Assembly: GCF_009795715.1 (NCBI RefSeq)
Contig: NZ_WTCR01000007.1
Span: 124,001-188,000, forward strand
DNA from: Labilibaculum euxinicum
GTDB lineage: Bacteria > Bacteroidota > Bacteroidia > Bacteroidales > Marinifilaceae
Reading direction: 5' to 3'
DNA length: 64,000 bases
Under the pieces are notes generated by a model that ran no database searches, was not told the DNA's origin, and saw only the letters and a program-made list of their open reading frames with translations. This document shows, piece by piece, positions 11,716-17,133 of this stretch (positions within the stretch are counted from its first letter, which is position 1; each line of letters opens with the position of its first letter). The position numbers were made by a program, and so were the translations under genes.

Positions 11716-11927
11716 ATTAGCCTCATTTAATAAGCCTATAAATATAGCAATGAATTCTTTTTTTTAATCAAACTAATTATAAATTGCAAAATAAATTCTG
11801 TTCCCTTTTCATTTAGAACACAATCGTTTCCATTTTAAATACTACAGACTGCAGGCTTTCTTCAGAAATCCCATTCTTATAGAATAACCAAGCTTTGCGT
11901 CAATTTTTTTATCATTACACATACACA
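11716..11927. other. divergent spacer upstream of the Mo-cofactor operon
   Basis: A/T-rich spacer between the CDF gene (minus) and the Mo-cofactor promoter (plus). No gene is supported here. It must hold the promoter of the CDF gene, which I could not locate. Confidence 0.5.
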
Positions 11928-11957
11928 TTTGTAGATTCATTAATATTTATATCTTTG
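11928..11957 (+). promoter_or_regulatory. promoter of the molybdenum cofactor operon
   Basis: TTTG (11928-11931), 18 bp, TATCTTTG (11950-11957): full match to the Bacteroidota promoter. The predicted transcript start (~11963) falls just before the first paired bases of the riboswitch. Confidence 0.75.
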
Positions 11958-11970
11958 CCGTTGAAATAAA

Positions 11971-12095
11971 GCGATCTCCGAGTTTATAATTTCTAAACCA
12001 CAACAAAACGGAACGAATTATAAACCGATGGGTAAATTGGGAAACGAATTTGCCTCCCGCTGGGCTTAAACCCTAAAATTGGAAAGGAGTGTTTT
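11971..12095 (+). ncRNA. Moco-type riboswitch (molybdenum cofactor RNA motif)
   Basis: The sequence folds as expected for the Moco RNA. A closing stem has CTCC (11976-11979) against GGAG (12086-12089). A long arm pairs GTTTATAATT with AATTATAAAC. A third arm pairs GGTAAATT with AATTTGCC (one G-U) around a GGGAAACG loop. The conserved core CTCCGAG, GGAACG and GCCTCCCGCTGGG is present. Position supports it: it sits between a good promoter and a five-gene Mo-cofactor operon. The Moco class is known to repress such operons when cofactor is plentiful. The presence of the third arm favours the molybdenum rather than the tungsten variant. Boundaries are by eye. Confidence 0.82.
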
Positions 12096-12173
12096 TGTGA
12101 TTTAGTATGATACCGATAGATAAGTAAATGTACTTTGCCTTAGCAATTTACATGCTGTTGAAACTAAGAACAT

Positions 12174-12205
12174 AAACCTCCGATTCTGAATTGAATTGGA
12201 GGTTT
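12174..12205 (+). terminator. riboswitch expression platform hairpin
   Basis: AAACCTCCGATTC pairs with GAATTGGAGGTTT (13 bp, one G-U) around a 6-base loop, followed by a T-rich but interrupted tail. It ends 14 bases before the start codon of the first Mo-cofactor gene, so it may either terminate transcription or block ribosome entry. It is too strong to be a chance feature of the leader. Confidence 0.65.
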
Positions 12206-12219
12206 CTTATATTTAAGAA

Positions 12220-12765
12220 ATGGTAAGTAGTAAAAGGAATATATTATTAATTGCAGGAACCGGCAGAAACGTTGGTAAAACTCTATTTGCATGTCGATTA
12301 ATTGAAAAATTGAAATGTGAAAATGAGTTGGTTTGTATTAAAATATCTCCTCACTTTCATGAATTAAGCAAAGAATTAGAAATCATCAGCGAAACTGATA
12401 ATTTTGTAATTGCAAAAGAAACTAGTAAAACAGGCAGTAAGGATAGCAATCGCTTGTTTCGGGCAGGAAGCAAAAAGGTTTATTACGTGCAGGCTAAAGA
12501 TGATCATCTGACTGAGATACTCTCCTATTTCGAGAAAATACTTTCGGCAGAAACTCCTGTAATTTGTGAATCGGGAGGCTTAAGAGATTTGATTGAACCA
12601 GGTCTGTTTTTAATGATCAACAAAAAAGACAATAAAAATATAAAAACCAGAGCTATTGGTTATGGAAAATTAGCAGATAAATGGATTGAATTTAATGGTG
12701 AAAATTTCAATTTTACTGCAGAGAACATTTCTTTTACCAATAATGAATGGAAAATAAAAGACTAA
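12220..12765 (+). CDS. P-loop NTPase, possibly MobB-like, first gene of the Mo-cofactor operon
   Basis: 181 residues. The N-terminus has a Walker A motif GTGRNVGKT (14-22) after a beta-strand, and an acidic strand VICESGG near 115 in the place of a Walker B-like element. The overall layout is that of the SIMIBI P-loop group, which includes MobB (GTP-binding partner of MobA in molybdopterin guanine dinucleotide synthesis) and dethiobiotin synthetase. No biotin genes are nearby, and the gene is 4 bp ahead of moeA under a Moco riboswitch, so a MobB-like role is the best guess. No signal peptide. The family assignment rests mostly on the P-loop and context. Confidence 0.6.
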   Translation: MVSSKRNILLIAGTGRNVGKTLFACRLIEKLKCENELVCIKISPHFHELSKELEIISETDNFVIAKETSKTGSKDSNRLFRAGSKKVYYVQAKDDHLTEILSYFEKILSAETPVICESGGLRDLIEPGLFLMINKKDNKNIKTRAIGYGKLADKWIEFNGENFNFTAENISFTNNEWKIKD

Positions 12766-12769
12766 CAAT

Positions 12770-13945
12770 ATGATTACGTTTCACGAGGCTTTAAAAACTG
12801 TAAAAAATGCCACTAAAAAGTTAGATACTGAGACTATCAATCTTGCTGATTGTTTGAATCGGGTTCTTGCAGAAGATGTACTTTCAGACATGTCTATTCC
12901 GCCATTTAATAAGTCGGCTATGGATGGATATGCTTGTAAACAATCTGATTTGGCAAACAATCTCGAAGTTTTGGAGATTATTGCAGCCGGGTCTGCTCCA
13001 GGCAAAGCTGTCGGAAACAATCAGTGTTCCAAAATTATGACCGGAGCGATGGTGCCTGAAGGTGCCGACACGGTAATCATGATTGAACACACGGAAGAAA
13101 TTGATGACAATCACATTCGTTTTACGAAAGACAAAACAAAATCGAATATTTGCCTTAAAGGAGAAGATATTTTAGAAAATGATGTCGTACTAAAGAGAGG
13201 AACCCGATTAAAGGCTCAGCACATTTCTGTTTTAGCAAGTGTCGGATGTGCAAATCCTCTTGTTTTCAGACAGCCAAAAGTTGCGACAATTGCAACTGGA
13301 AGCGAATTGGTTGAACCTGATCAAAAACCAGAGATATCTCAAATTCGCAATGTAAACTCATGGCAATTGCAGGCACAACTACAAAAAATGGGCATTCGTG
13401 GCAATAGTCTCGGAATTGTTGCTGATTCGAAAGAAGCTACTAAAGAAGCAATGGTAAAATGTTTGGAAGAAAATGATGTATTGATTATATCGGGTGGTGT
13501 TTCCGTAGGTGACTTCGATTACATTCCTCAAATTCTAAAAGAACTGGGTTTCAATATTTGGTTTCATACGCTTATGGTTAAACCCGGCAAACACACAGTA
13601 TTTGCAACCTGCAAGGAGAAATATGTTTTAGGTTTACCAGGAAATCCGGTTTCCTCATTTGTACAATTTGAATTGCTCGGGAAACCATTACTTTACCGAC
13701 TTATGGGACATGATTATAATGCACCTATGGTACGAATGCCAATAGCTTCAGATTACAAGCGAAAAAGAACCGACAGACTTGAATTTTTACCAGTTCGCTT
13801 TAATGCTGACAATCAGGTTGTACCCATTAGCTATCATGGTTCGGCACACATTAATGCTTTTACTTTAGCCAATGGAATTATGGCAGTTCCAAGGGAGGTT
13901 GATGAATTTACGGAAGGAGAATTTGTTCATGTTAGACAATTATAA
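12770..13945 (+). CDS. moeA: molybdopterin molybdenumtransferase
   Basis: 391 residues, standard MoeA length. It inserts molybdate into adenylated molybdopterin. The N-terminal part (~1-170) has PPFNKSAMDGYA and the MTGAMVPEGADTVIMIE stretch. The MogA-like domain (~175-320) has ATGSEL, ISGGVSVGDFDYIP and LPGNPVSSFV. A C-terminal beta domain (~325-391) follows. It lies 4 bp after the P-loop gene, and its end overlaps the moaA start by 17 bp, which indicates translational coupling. Confidence 0.95.
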   Translation: MITFHEALKTVKNATKKLDTETINLADCLNRVLAEDVLSDMSIPPFNKSAMDGYACKQSDLANNLEVLEIIAAGSAPGKAVGNNQCSKIMTGAMVPEGADTVIMIEHTEEIDDNHIRFTKDKTKSNICLKGEDILENDVVLKRGTRLKAQHISVLASVGCANPLVFRQPKVATIATGSELVEPDQKPEISQIRNVNSWQLQAQLQKMGIRGNSLGIVADSKEATKEAMVKCLEENDVLIISGGVSVGDFDYIPQILKELGFNIWFHTLMVKPGKHTVFATCKEKYVLGLPGNPVSSFVQFELLGKPLLYRLMGHDYNAPMVRMPIASDYKRKRTDRLEFLPVRFNADNQVVPISYHGSAHINAFTLANGIMAVPREVDEFTEGEFVHVRQL

Positions 13946-14729
13946 CAGAAATATAAATTACCTGCGAATTTCGGTAACAGATCGATGCAATCTTCGATGT
14001 ACTTATTGTATGCCCGAAGAGGGCATTGATTTAATGGCTCATGATGAAATATTGAGTTTTGAGCAGATTACCGATTTTGTAAAGGAAGCAGTTGCAACCG
14101 GGATCAATAAAATCAGACTAACCGGTGGCGAACCTTTGGTTAGAAAAGGAATTGTTGATTTGGTGAAATTACTTTCAGATATTCACGGAATTGAGGAGAT
14201 TGCCATGACCACCAATGGCATCTTACTTGATCAATTTGCTGGTCAATTAGCCAAAGCTGGCTTAAGAAGAGTAAACATTAGTTTGGATACGCTTAATCCT
14301 GAAAAATATAAGAAAATAACCCGACTGGGTGATATCAAGGATGTTTTTAAAGGAATAAAAGCAGCTCAAAAAGCTGGATTGCATCCCGTAAAAATAAACT
14401 GCGTTCGCATGCTCGATGCAGATTTGGATGATCTGGAAAATTTACGCCAGTTTTGCAAGAGTAATAATCTGGAATTAAGATTCATAAAACAGATGGATTT
14501 GTCCACTGGAGAATTCTCTGTTGTTGAAGGTGGTGAAGGTGGTAACTGTGTGGAATGCAATCGGATTAGACTTACTGCCAACGGAAAAGTAAAACCCTGT
14601 TTGTTTAATGCCAGCGAATTCGACAGTAAAGAATTAGGCAATAAAGAGGCAATCGATAAATCGATCAACCAAAAACCAAAAGCCGGCACAAAAAATAAAA
14701 ACGGCAGTTTTTATGGTATTGGAGGATAG
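13929..14729 (+). CDS. moaA: GTP 3',8-cyclase, compact form
   Basis: 266 residues from the ATG at 13929 (the longer frame from 13872 adds residues foreign to the family). This radical SAM enzyme turns GTP into the cyclic precursor for pyranopterin. It has the N-terminal cluster CxxxCxxC (Cys20, 24, 27), the SAM motif GGEPL and the C-terminal GTP-side cluster Cys207, Cys210 and Cys224 (CX2CX13C) with CNRIRL. It ends in Gly-Gly, as MoaA must. Typical MoaA has ~320-335 residues. Here ELRFIKQMD runs almost directly into the second cluster, so the segment between them (roughly 50-60 residues) is missing. Both clusters and the key Arg residues (Arg13; Arg212 and Arg214 of CNRIR) are kept, so it is probably active. 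Confidence 0.9.
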   Translation: MLDNYNRNINYLRISVTDRCNLRCTYCMPEEGIDLMAHDEILSFEQITDFVKEAVATGINKIRLTGGEPLVRKGIVDLVKLLSDIHGIEEIAMTTNGILLDQFAGQLAKAGLRRVNISLDTLNPEKYKKITRLGDIKDVFKGIKAAQKAGLHPVKINCVRMLDADLDDLENLRQFCKSNNLELRFIKQMDLSTGEFSVVEGGEGGNCVECNRIRLTANGKVKPCLFNASEFDSKELGNKEAIDKSINQKPKAGTKNKNGSFYGIGG

Positions 14730-14731
14730 AT

Positions 14732-14785
14732 CAGTAAACAGAGAACAGTGAGCAGAGAATTAGTTAGCAGTGATCAGAAAACAAT
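14732..14785 (+). repeat. degenerate heptanucleotide repeat between moaA and moaC
   Basis: CAGTAAA, CAGAGAA, CAGTGAG, CAGAGAA, an 8-base TTAGTTAG, then CAGTGAT and CAGAAAA: seven-base units that all begin CAG, and fill the whole spacer between the two genes. Not coding in any frame that I can support. Confidence 0.6.
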
Positions 14786-14794
14786 ATTTCAGTA

Positions 14795-15253
14795 ATGGGA
14801 GATTTTAGTCATATCGATAAGGATGGGAAAGCCAATATGGTTGATGTGGGTGATAAAATACCTCAAATAAGAGAAGCCAAAGCTATTGGTATTATCCATT
14901 TAGAGGCACGCACCATCGAATTAATTCAAGAAAATGCAATGAAAAAAGGCGATGCTTTGACTATCGCTGAAATTGCAGGTATTCAGGCAGCTAAACGCAC
15001 AAGTGATTTAATTCCTCTCTGTCATACGCTTCAAATTACAAAGGCTGAAGTAAAGTGCAGTATTATTGAAAAGGGCGTTCAGGTAAATACCCGGGTAAAA
15101 TGCATTGGACAAACAGGAGTGGAAATGGAAGCGTTAACCGCTGCCAGCATCGCTCTGCTAACCATTTACGATATGTGTAAAGCTGTTGATAAATCAATGG
15201 TGTTAGGCGAAATTGCGCTTGTAGAAAAAACAAAAACCGATTTGAAGCAATAA
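14795..15253 (+). CDS. moaC: cyclic pyranopterin monophosphate synthase
   Basis: 152 residues, the usual MoaC size. It converts the MoaA product (3',8-cyclo-dihydro-GTP) to cyclic pyranopterin monophosphate. The family motifs are DVGDKIPQIREAKA near the start, GIQAAKRTSDLIPLCHTL (catalytic Lys and His) and GVEMEALTAASIALLTIYDMCKAVDKSM. No signal peptide. It lies 65 bp after moaA (the spacer is the heptamer repeat) and 6 bp before the MOSC-MogA gene. Confidence 0.95.
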   Translation: MGDFSHIDKDGKANMVDVGDKIPQIREAKAIGIIHLEARTIELIQENAMKKGDALTIAEIAGIQAAKRTSDLIPLCHTLQITKAEVKCSIIEKGVQVNTRVKCIGQTGVEMEALTAASIALLTIYDMCKAVDKSMVLGEIALVEKTKTDLKQ

Positions 15254-15259
15254 AACACG

Positions 15260-16207
15260 ATGAGCATGAGCACAAAAGAAGTATCAGTACTATCTGTAAA
15301 TATATCTGAAAAAAAAGGAGTGATCAAAAAGCCTGTTGATTCCATAGAATTGCATTCTCTTGGTGTTGTAAATGATGCACATTCGGGAAACTGGCACCGT
15401 CAGGTTAGCTTGCTGGCCAAAGAAAGTATCGATAAATTTTCGGTACAAGCCAAACGCAATATCAATTTTGGAGAATTTGCCGAGAATATTACCACCGAAG
15501 GACTTTTACTTCATTTGACTGCTCCACTTGATCGTTTCCACATAGGTGACATGATTTTGGAAGTGACTCAGATTGGTAAAAAATGCCATGGAGACAACTG
15601 CAGTATTTTTCGCGAAATAGGAAACTGTGTAATGCCAAAAGAAGGTATTTTTTGCAGAGTTTTAAACGGTGGTAATTTAAAAGCAGGTGATGTTCTTTGC
15701 TATCATCCAAGAGTAATAAAAACCATGGTAATCACTCTTAGCGACAGAGCCAGCCGAGGTGAATATGCTGATAAAAGCGGTCCGTTACTGGAGAAATTAG
15801 CTGAAGAATTCTTCAAATCGAAAAACCGGCATTATCAAATAGAAAAATTCATTATTCCTGATCAAGAATCTGATCTTACCAATTTACTTGAAAAAGCAAA
15901 AGAGGAAGATTTTGATCTTGTATTCACTACAGGTGGAACAGGTATTGGACCAAAAGACATTACTCCTGATGTAGTAAAAAAACACGTCACAAAAGAGATA
16001 ACCGGAATTATGGAATTGATTCGGGTAAAATATGGAATGGAAAAGCCAAATGCATTGGTTAGTCGTGGCATTGCAGGTGTTATGAATAAAACTCTAATTT
16101 ATACCATGCCTGGTAGTCCAAAAGCCGTAAATGAATACTGCTCGGAGATTTTTAAGACGATTGAACACTCACTTTACATGATGAATGAGTTGGATATTCA
16201 TGGCTAA
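15260..16207 (+). CDS. MOSC domain - molybdopterin adenylyltransferase (MogA/MoaB) fusion
   Basis: 315 residues. The N-terminal half (~1-150) is a MOSC domain: GEFAENITTEGL, then IGKKCHGDNCSIF with its Cys residues, a fold that binds sulphur carried on Cys and is found in molybdenum cofactor sulphurases. The C-terminal half (~152-310) is MogA-like: VITLSDRASRGEYADKSGP, TTGGTGIGPKDITPDV and MPGSPKAVNE, which adenylates molybdopterin before MoeA inserts the metal. The fusion is full length on both sides. It is the last gene of the operon. Further Moco genes (moaD, moaE, moeB) are not in the window. Confidence 0.92.
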   Translation: MSMSTKEVSVLSVNISEKKGVIKKPVDSIELHSLGVVNDAHSGNWHRQVSLLAKESIDKFSVQAKRNINFGEFAENITTEGLLLHLTAPLDRFHIGDMILEVTQIGKKCHGDNCSIFREIGNCVMPKEGIFCRVLNGGNLKAGDVLCYHPRVIKTMVITLSDRASRGEYADKSGPLLEKLAEEFFKSKNRHYQIEKFIIPDQESDLTNLLEKAKEEDFDLVFTTGGTGIGPKDITPDVVKKHVTKEITGIMELIRVKYGMEKPNALVSRGIAGVMNKTLIYTMPGSPKAVNEYCSEIFKTIEHSLYMMNELDIHG

Positions 16208-16353: not shown

Positions 16354-16441
16354 GGAGAGATGGCAGAGTGGTCGAATGCGGTAGTCTTGAAAACTATTGT
16401 GCGGCAACGTACCGGGGGTTCGAATCCCTCTCTCTCCGCCA
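16354..16441 (+). tRNA. tRNA-Ser(UGA)
   Basis: 88 bases including an encoded CCA. The acceptor stem is GGAGAGA / TCTCTCC (7 of 7 pairs). The anticodon stem GTAGT / ACTAT holds the loop CTTGAAA with anticodon TGA (reads UCA). A long variable arm, as in type II tRNAs, and the T-arm GGGGG-TTCGAAT-CCCTC follow. Discriminator base is G, as for serine. An integrase relict starts 246 bp downstream, so this tRNA was probably an integration site. Confidence 0.97.
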
Positions 16442-16462
16442 TGCAGAAATGCAATAGAAAGA

Positions 16463-16495
16463 AAAGCCTTGTAAACTTAACGTTTACAAGGCTTT
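16463..16495 (+). terminator. terminator after tRNA-Ser
   Basis: Perfect 14-bp inverted repeat AAAGCCTTGTAAAC / GTTTACAAGGCTTT with a 5-base loop, and a pyrimidine-rich tail, 22 bases after the tRNA. It would also work on the other strand. Confidence 0.75.
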
Positions 16496-16686
16496 CTTCA
16501 TTTAGTACCAACGCAAATAAACACCTAAAACAACATTAAAAGGGTGTAGCATTCGGTGTAGATTAGAAAGCTTAATTTTGCTACACCTCGAACAGGTACT
16601 AATGCACTGTAATTCATCATTTTGCTCCCTTCAAAAATCACTCGTTTGCTAGTTTTGACAAATCGTTTTAAAACATTCAAAAACCA

Positions 16687-17133
16687 GTGAAAATGAGACA
16701 AACTACTTCTATTTTATTTTTTGCAAGAAAAACTACTCAACTGAAAAATGGAGAATCTCCCATCTTTGTAAGAATCACTATCGACGGTCAACGATTAGAT
16801 ATATCTCTTAAGAGAAGTATTGATTCTAAGTTCTGGGATTCTAATAAAAGGAAATGGAAAGGCAACTCTCTTATGACAAAAGAAAACAATCAGATGAATA
16901 CCTACTTAAAGGAAATAGCCAACCTGTGTGGTATCAATAAGAACTTGAGTACACATTCAGCCTGACATACATTTGCAACAACGGTTACTTTGGGCAATAA
17001 TCTTAACATTAAGGCTATTTTGAAAATAATGGGACATACCAATACCAGAATGACTAAAAATTATGACAGAGCTAGCGAGAAGCTCATCTCAAACGAGATG
17101 AGTAAGATTGAAGGGATGTATCAATATGTATAA
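16687..17133 (+). pseudogene. tyrosine recombinase (integrase) relict
   Basis: 149 codons in one frame. The first ~85 residues are the N-terminal arm-DNA-binding domain of Bacteroidota tyrosine recombinases (RKTTQLKNGESPIFVRI, then KRSIDSKFWDSNKRKW). The frame then jumps straight to the catalytic C-terminus: HSA-stop-HTFATT, KIMGHTNTRMTKNYDR. About 200 central residues, with the first catalytic Arg, are deleted. The Arg of the HxxR motif is replaced by an in-frame TGA (16963-16965), explained by one CGA to TGA change. The C-terminal half has the catalytic His (GHTN) and Tyr (NYD). The element it served is gone or lies further right. It sits just behind tRNA-Ser. Confidence 0.82.

Follow-up and report, generated by a model that had tools for sequence, protein, structure and literature searches.

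A P3-less RF01055 riboswitch and a covarying hairpin precede a molybdenum-cofactor operon in Labilibaculum euxinicum

The 64,000-nucleotide stretch of Labilibaculum euxinicum DNA analysed here (the window) carries, all on the forward strand, two promoter-like boxes, an aptamer of the Moco/Tuco riboswitch family (Rfam RF01055) and a terminator-like hairpin, followed by an operon for a MobB-like GTPase, MoeA, MoaA, MoaC and a MOSC-MogA protein, in that order. MoeA (12770-13945; Pfam MoeA_N, 1.4e-46), MoaC (14795-15253; Pfam, 5.5e-51) and the fusion of a MOSC domain to a MogA-like domain (15260-16207; Pfam MOSC and MoCF_biosynth) are identified by their domains. MoaA (13929-14729) is a short form of 266 residues from the ATG at 13929, to which Pfam was applied, and TIGR02666 is above its cut-off on a longer frame from 13872. 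The window MoaA matches positions 58-123 of the 128 of Mob_synth_C, the C-terminal CxxC...C cysteines are present, and frames of ~265-270 residues also occur in many relatives. No genes for MoaD or MoaE were found within the operon (12220-16207).

The first gene (12220-12765) encodes a 181-residue SIMIBI-type P-loop protein for which no Pfam or NCBIfam match was found (none at 1e-3 for the window protein); three of its relatives come near the cut-off of MobB (PF03205), with 20.1-26.2 bits against 26.6. Its predicted structure (pLDDT 93.8) is SIMIBI-like. Among the best VIA-align rows are those of cyclic 2,3-diphosphoglycerate synthetase (Z 11.4 and rmsd 3.6 with 160 aligned) and of HypB (Z 11.2 and rmsd 3.5 with 146 aligned), and Ffh, LpxK, UreG and BioD come after them; MobB itself appears in Foldseek (E 0.01) and is not among the best 50 VIA-align rows. 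A search of the PDB by sequence gave nothing convincing (best E 0.22). A MobB-like role would fit the operon, short of proof.

The RF01055 element (11964-12105) was recovered by a cmscan of the whole window with 56.0 bits, against a gathering threshold of 36, and E 1e-10; the alignment spans 135 of 135 model positions and is not truncated, and no second match was found elsewhere in the 5.06-Mb genome. P1 is formed by 11976-11979 with 12086-12089, the GAAA tetraloop of P4 is present (GGGAAACG), and at the place of the tetraloop receptor in the P2 bulge CUAA is retained, with ACG for AUG. Among 23 sequences, i.e. the window copy and 22 loci of its order (L020 was omitted, because cmscan misplaced its 3' half), both sides have changed in 16 of the 24 predicted pairs; the covarying pairs sit in P2 and P4, the P1 pairs being nearly invariant. 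The element is a genuine and, in kind, ordinary member of its family. A preliminary description of this DNA had proposed a Moco riboswitch with a 13-bp platform hairpin, and that identification stands, because the covariance model places the leader well over its threshold and both aptamer and hairpin hold up, their pairing being conserved with covariation in related genomes.

What did not survive of that proposal is the standard Moco form. When cmscan aligns the window copy, all 15 positions that make up helix P3 in the model are missing from it, and at the usual place of P3 a GAT junction (12027-12029) joins P2 straight to P4; absence of P3 is taken in the literature to be a mark of Tuco sensors, and the gene inventory nevertheless points to molybdenum. 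Nor is the RNA the isolated Bacteroidota example that had been implied. In genome samples that are draws, searched with stricter filters, uncorrected for kinship and both inclusive of the window genome, RF01055 was above cut-off in 23 of the 247 order genomes (24 loci) and in 19 of the 395 taken from across the phylum. By cmscan alignment, P3 is missing from 24/24 loci of the order; the other 18 phylum genomes contribute 19 loci, of which five (L061, L063, L068, L075 and L080) have P3 or an insert at its place and 14 do not. A pattern scan gave at least 117 loci, 80 of which are listed by name with taxon labels taken from record titles. In the literature, Bacteroidota do not appear in the abstract of Regulski 2008 (PMC2408646), and the string 'Bacteroid' occurs zero times in its main text; MOCO RNAs have been called sporadic outside the gamma-Proteobacteria (PMC3766115), the one paper found on Moco riboswitches together with Bacteroidetes (PMC12121620) treats E. 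coli in its Moco passages, and PMC9495176 covers human pathogens.

Upstream of the aptamer, a TTTG at 11928-11931 (-33 box) and TATCTTTG at 11950-11957 (-7 box, TAnnTTTG) are separated by 18 nt, in the manner of Bacteroidota-type promoters. The boxes are present where the preliminary description had placed a promoter, but the pattern itself is uninformative, since the window holds five matches with 4.3 expected, i.e. chance level, and the bare pattern was rejected as evidence; the call rests instead on conservation in 11 close relatives. Nine of these have TTTG (L164 has TTTC and L182 TTTA), ten have TATCTTTA at the -7 box (L162 has TACCTTTA), and the spacer is 18 nt in nine and 19 nt in two. 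The promoter spacer TAGATTCATTAATATT (region 11920-11957) is conserved in relatives about as much as the boxes and contains a near-palindrome (ATTAATATTAAT in some), possibly the site of an additional regulator.

Downstream of the aptamer, the arms 12174-12186 and 12193-12205 form a hairpin of exactly 13 bp, as first described, with a 6-nt loop; 14 nt separate its end from the start codon (ATG at 12220), and it is followed by TTTCTTATATTT. The fold of 12150-12225 has a z of -5.3, with 0 of 200 shuffles as good, and a terminator scan picks up 12174-12205 (one found, 0.4 expected). The element thus combines the stable GC-bearing hairpin and T tract of an intrinsic terminator, with the T tract of the window interrupted and imperfect. 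The hairpin was found in the window and in 11/11 close relatives compared; when the 12 (of which 11 are distinct) are aligned, pairing extends to 82.5% of the cells and the covariation score is 0.281, neither value being reached in 500 shuffles, and six of the 13 pairs show changes on both sides, a count reached by two of 500 shuffles. When the partner was slid by one column as a control, pairing fell to 50-52%, and a count made without L140, L202 and L181 gave a similar picture. A T-rich tail lies 3' of the hairpin in 12/12, with nine consecutive T in L118 and six in L140, L202 and L181. In four Ancylomarina-type relatives the hairpin has shrunk to ~5 bp. Since the hairpin is conserved and covarying in 11 relatives and followed by T-rich tails, the platform is most likely a transcriptional OFF switch.

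Two mutually exclusive pairings are possible within this leader. The 3' strand of P1, GGAG followed by UGUUU (GGAGUGUUU, 12086-12094), pairs through its first four bases with 11976-11979, and may alternatively pair, through eight pairs and one bulged U, with AAACCUCC (12174-12181), which is the hairpin 5' arm and otherwise pairs with GGAGGUUU of the terminator. Slightly on the side of belief, we propose that the P3-less riboswitch represses the molybdenum-cofactor operon via transcription termination, and that its ligand is most likely Moco, or a form of Moco, rather than Tuco. In the ligand-bound state the metal cofactor would close P1, with closed P1 the hairpin 12174-12205 would form, and RNA polymerase would stop at the T-rich tract ahead of the operon; in the ligand-free state the P1 3' strand would be available to the hairpin 5' arm, and the terminator would be held open. 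Termination is also modulated by the MOCO riboswitch of E. coli, according to the RNA-seq analysis reported in PMC12121620.

The support for the antiterminator step differs between families. When folds of 11964-12215 were forced, P1 with the terminator gave -59.3, the terminator alone -60.7 and the antiterminator -61.7 kcal/mol, the last being the free energy minimum of this segment; the free minimum of 11961-12219 has the hairpin and lacks P1. Because the minimum shifts with the segment chosen, the energies show just that the states are close, and the hairpin can form without P1, since forcing it alone costs only 1.0 kcal/mol. Complementarity of the P1 3' strand was then scored against each leader with 300 shuffles. 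It was significant (p<0.05) in 14 of 20 leaders of the order and in 29 of 59 overall, a set that leaves aside L046 (no gene), L037, L049 and L055 (truly short leaders), L140 and L202, and takes in 41 of the at least 117 pattern-scan loci (those with a TauE or P-loop gene in range), some of which repeat loci of the order (L147/L040, L224/L036, L219/L039). In the group of the window itself, 0 of 12 leaders pair beyond chance (p 0.106 for the window and 0.11-0.93 for the 11 relatives; among these, 0.83 for L140, 0.71 for L202 and 0.60 for L181). An antiterminator as an established step was therefore rejected here as unsupported in the window's own group; being significant in other families and in none of these 12 leaders, it is plausible but unproven.

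These results bear on two other accounts of the hairpin. It may act on translation, shielding the start region or the GGAGG without ending transcription, an account to which we assign a limited chance. GGAGG (12198-12202) does lie within the hairpin 3' arm, the gene starts shortly after, and the imperfect U tract of the window favours such an action; furthermore, the start codon of L037, L049 and L055 stands 12-15 nt after P1, a layout like that of E. coli, so that translational control is likely at those three loci. In the window, however, GGAGG is 17 nt from the ATG, beyond the usual Shine-Dalgarno distance, and both the recovery of the hairpin by the terminator scan and the runs of six and nine T in close relatives argue for termination. 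Bacteroidota rely little on Shine-Dalgarno sites. The other account, in which the hairpin is a terminator uncoupled from P1, being constitutive or answering another signal while the aptamer acts otherwise, is consistent with the lack of significant pairing in all 12 leaders and with the folds that hold the hairpin without P1. We judge it quite unlikely, given that anti-P1 segments recur in other families and that most of the 12 leaders retain both CUCC in the hairpin 5' arm and GGAG in the P1 3' strand, so a short exclusive pairing could still form.

With regard to the metal, Regulski 2008 (PMC2408646) reports that 58 of 176 Moco RNA representatives lack P3 and proposes these as sensors of the tungsten cofactor, because tungsten genes were present in 17 of 19 hosts of P3-less RNAs; a 2020 review (PMC7266159) still carries the WCo variant. 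P3 as the discriminator between Moco and Tuco rests on that genome correlation of 2008. The expectation that a P3-less host is a tungsten user was not borne out for the window genome, in which neither AOR (PF02730; present in 100 of 247 order genomes) nor WtpA (TIGR03730) was found. Among the 23 order genomes with the RNA, WtpA is above cut-off in exactly the ten that bear AOR; the other 13, the window genome included, have no AOR and no WtpA, two of the 13 being 78-82% complete. AOR was likewise found in 0 of 20 other phylum genomes searched, 18 of which are above the RF01055 cut-off. The AFOR_N domain (PF02730) is an imperfect tungsten marker, because the E. coli control matches too. When the 111 MoaC-bearing genomes of the order are compared, the RNA is commoner among the 21 that lack AOR (11) than among the 90 that carry it (10; Fisher p 1e-4, with kinship uncorrected); MoaC was not seen in two of the 23 RNA-bearing genomes. 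A PF00384 match exists in 23/23 of these genomes, the sole match of G039 being a 1,239-residue frame at 84 bits.

The gene content of the window genome points to molybdenum. Its ModA scores 153 bits, the nearest solved chains are molybdate-binding ModA, and genes for an ABC permease and a TOBE-bearing ATPase lie beside it, as in a ModABC-like transporter. There are two DMSO-reductase-family enzymes, one in a thiosulfate/polysulfide-reductase-like set, immediately upstream of which lies a MobA-like gene, and one DmsA-like; both catalytic subunits fall below the best NCBIfam cut-offs. TupA could be probed only weakly, via the broad PF12849, which gave 27 matches in 15 genomes; the 25 examined were judged to be PstS-like, LysR-like or otherwise unlike TupA, and TTTS, a motif of TupA, occurs in the first 80 residues of 0 of these 25. 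Given that neither AOR nor WtpA was found, and that the genome encodes a ModABC-like transporter as well as two enzymes of the DMSO reductase family, we infer that Moco is a likelier ligand than Tuco in this organism.

The competing possibility is that the cell makes a tungsten cofactor, with the ModABC-like system importing tungstate and tungsten entering the DMSO-reductase-family enzymes, and that the RNA is a Tuco sensor. ModA and DMSO-reductase-family enzymes can also use tungsten, and the missing AOR and WtpA are therefore no proof against Tuco; the absence of P3 and its published correlation with tungsten genes speak in the same direction, as do the ten order genomes that combine the RNA with AOR and WtpA. 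Outside Bacteroidota, moreover, the pattern scan found P3-less RNAs with AOR as the gene directly behind them at L119, L125, L128 and L170, and with WtpA there at L130. Against this stand the window genome and the 12 others with neither gene and the higher frequency of the RNA where AOR is absent; furthermore, homologues of AOR and WtpA were not found around the 23 other loci of the order, searched with one query each and over stretches some of which are short. The tungsten link of P3-less RNAs thus seems real outside Bacteroidota and seems not to carry over to the order of the window, since AOR and WtpA are absent in 13 of 23 genomes yet adjacent to the RNA elsewhere. A Tuco sensor in the window organism is accordingly a minority view in our estimate, and Moco remains our preferred ligand.

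The genes that follow the RNA in relatives, which outside the window are mechanically predicted frames, point to transport. At the 24 loci of the order, the first gene encodes a TauE/SafE protein in 17 (L036-L045, L047 and L050-L055), a MobB-like P-loop protein in three (the window included), the molybdate transporter MOT1 in one (L048; 7e-56), a TonB receptor in one (L049) and a membrane-NTPase fusion in one, the last locus lying at a contig edge. Among the 80 loci listed by name, 39 have Bacteroidota titles, and there the first gene is TauE in 18, P-loop in 17, MoeA in one, a TonB-receptor homologue in one and AOR in none, two loci being too short. All 17 TauE members match PF01925 at E<=0.001, three having scores of 106-117 bits (cut-off 32.6). 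A profile of the linked subfamily was run on 44 genomes, namely all 23 that carry the RNA and 21 that do not. It recovers 18 copies, which score 329-361 bits, and the match that follows them at E<=1e-20 has 95.6; the RNA-free genomes were hand-chosen (all 10 with MoaC and no AOR, plus 11 of the 80 with both), and the profile was built from riboswitch-linked members, so that only absence elsewhere informs. Seventeen of the 18 copies follow an RNA; the other (G125) shares its contig with MoaC and stands ~2 kb before it. The window genome has no copy of the subfamily.

Dedicated molybdate importers (a ModA above its cut-off or, for G168, MOT1) occur in 2 of 16 genomes with the linked TauE vs 4 of 7 without it (p 0.045), or 1 of 16 vs 4 of 7 if ModA must exceed 100 bits (p 0.017); numbers are small, and three of the seven TauE-free genomes have neither TauE nor a dedicated importer. 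The riboswitch-linked subfamily is a candidate molybdate importer, and a sulfite exporter would be less logical than an importer under a cofactor-repressed switch. No solved relatives were found by sequence for the one member queried, and no convincing fold match was obtained. TonB-dependent receptors or their homologues directly follow P3-less Moco RNAs at L049, L113, L146, L156 and L177 (L211 repeats L049), and are candidate carriers of molybdate, tungstate or a chelate through the outer membrane. At L033 and L040, the gene behind the riboswitch or behind TauE belongs to the riboswitch operon and encodes a protein of 577-583 residues that combines an extended membrane part with an NTPase_1 domain (seen for L040). 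Among the papers listed, no title or beginning of an abstract ties TauE or TonB receptors to riboswitch-controlled molybdate uptake.

With its core junction, P1, P2, P4 and GAAA tetraloop, and with a Moco synthesis operon downstream, the window element resembles the E. coli moaABCDE Moco RNA (RF01055, with P3), but it lacks P3 and has a separate downstream hairpin, whereas the E. coli RNA has its ribosome site inside P1. It shares the absence of P3 with the Tuco-assigned RNAs of Regulski 2008 (PMC2408646), which describes terminator-like platforms, some on P3-less RNAs, but in the window genome ModA is present and neither AOR nor WtpA was found. Its nearest counterparts are in Labilibaculum filiforme (L162), Marinifilum (L118) and Ancylomarina (L164, L185), where the P-loop-MoeA-MoaA-MoaC-MOSC_MogA order recurs and a hairpin occupies the corresponding position, the Ancylomarina loci differing from the window in the small size of theirs. 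The element is of interest mainly because it conflicts with the P3 rule and gives a lead on transporters. Tentatively, and with more doubt than conviction, we suggest that the P3-less RNAs of Bacteroidales sense Moco, that the TauE/SafE subfamily, their most frequent first target, is a hitherto unrecognised importer of molybdate in place of ModABC and MOT1, and that the TonB receptor family under the control of these RNAs conveys molybdate or a chelate through the outer membrane; if this is true, the P3 rule separating Moco from Tuco sensors fails across a whole order. Bacteroidales offer an independent test set for that rule, with P3-less RNAs in genomes free of AOR and WtpA (Labilibaculum, Marinifilum) where metals can be swapped, and the riboswitch serves as a signpost to candidate uptake proteins such as the TauE subfamily and the TonB receptor.

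Beyond the operon, at 16354-16965 of the window, a tRNA gene is followed by a 92-residue frame that matches the integrase-type arm DNA-binding domain PF17293 at 51.5 bits, possibly the remnant of an integrated element.
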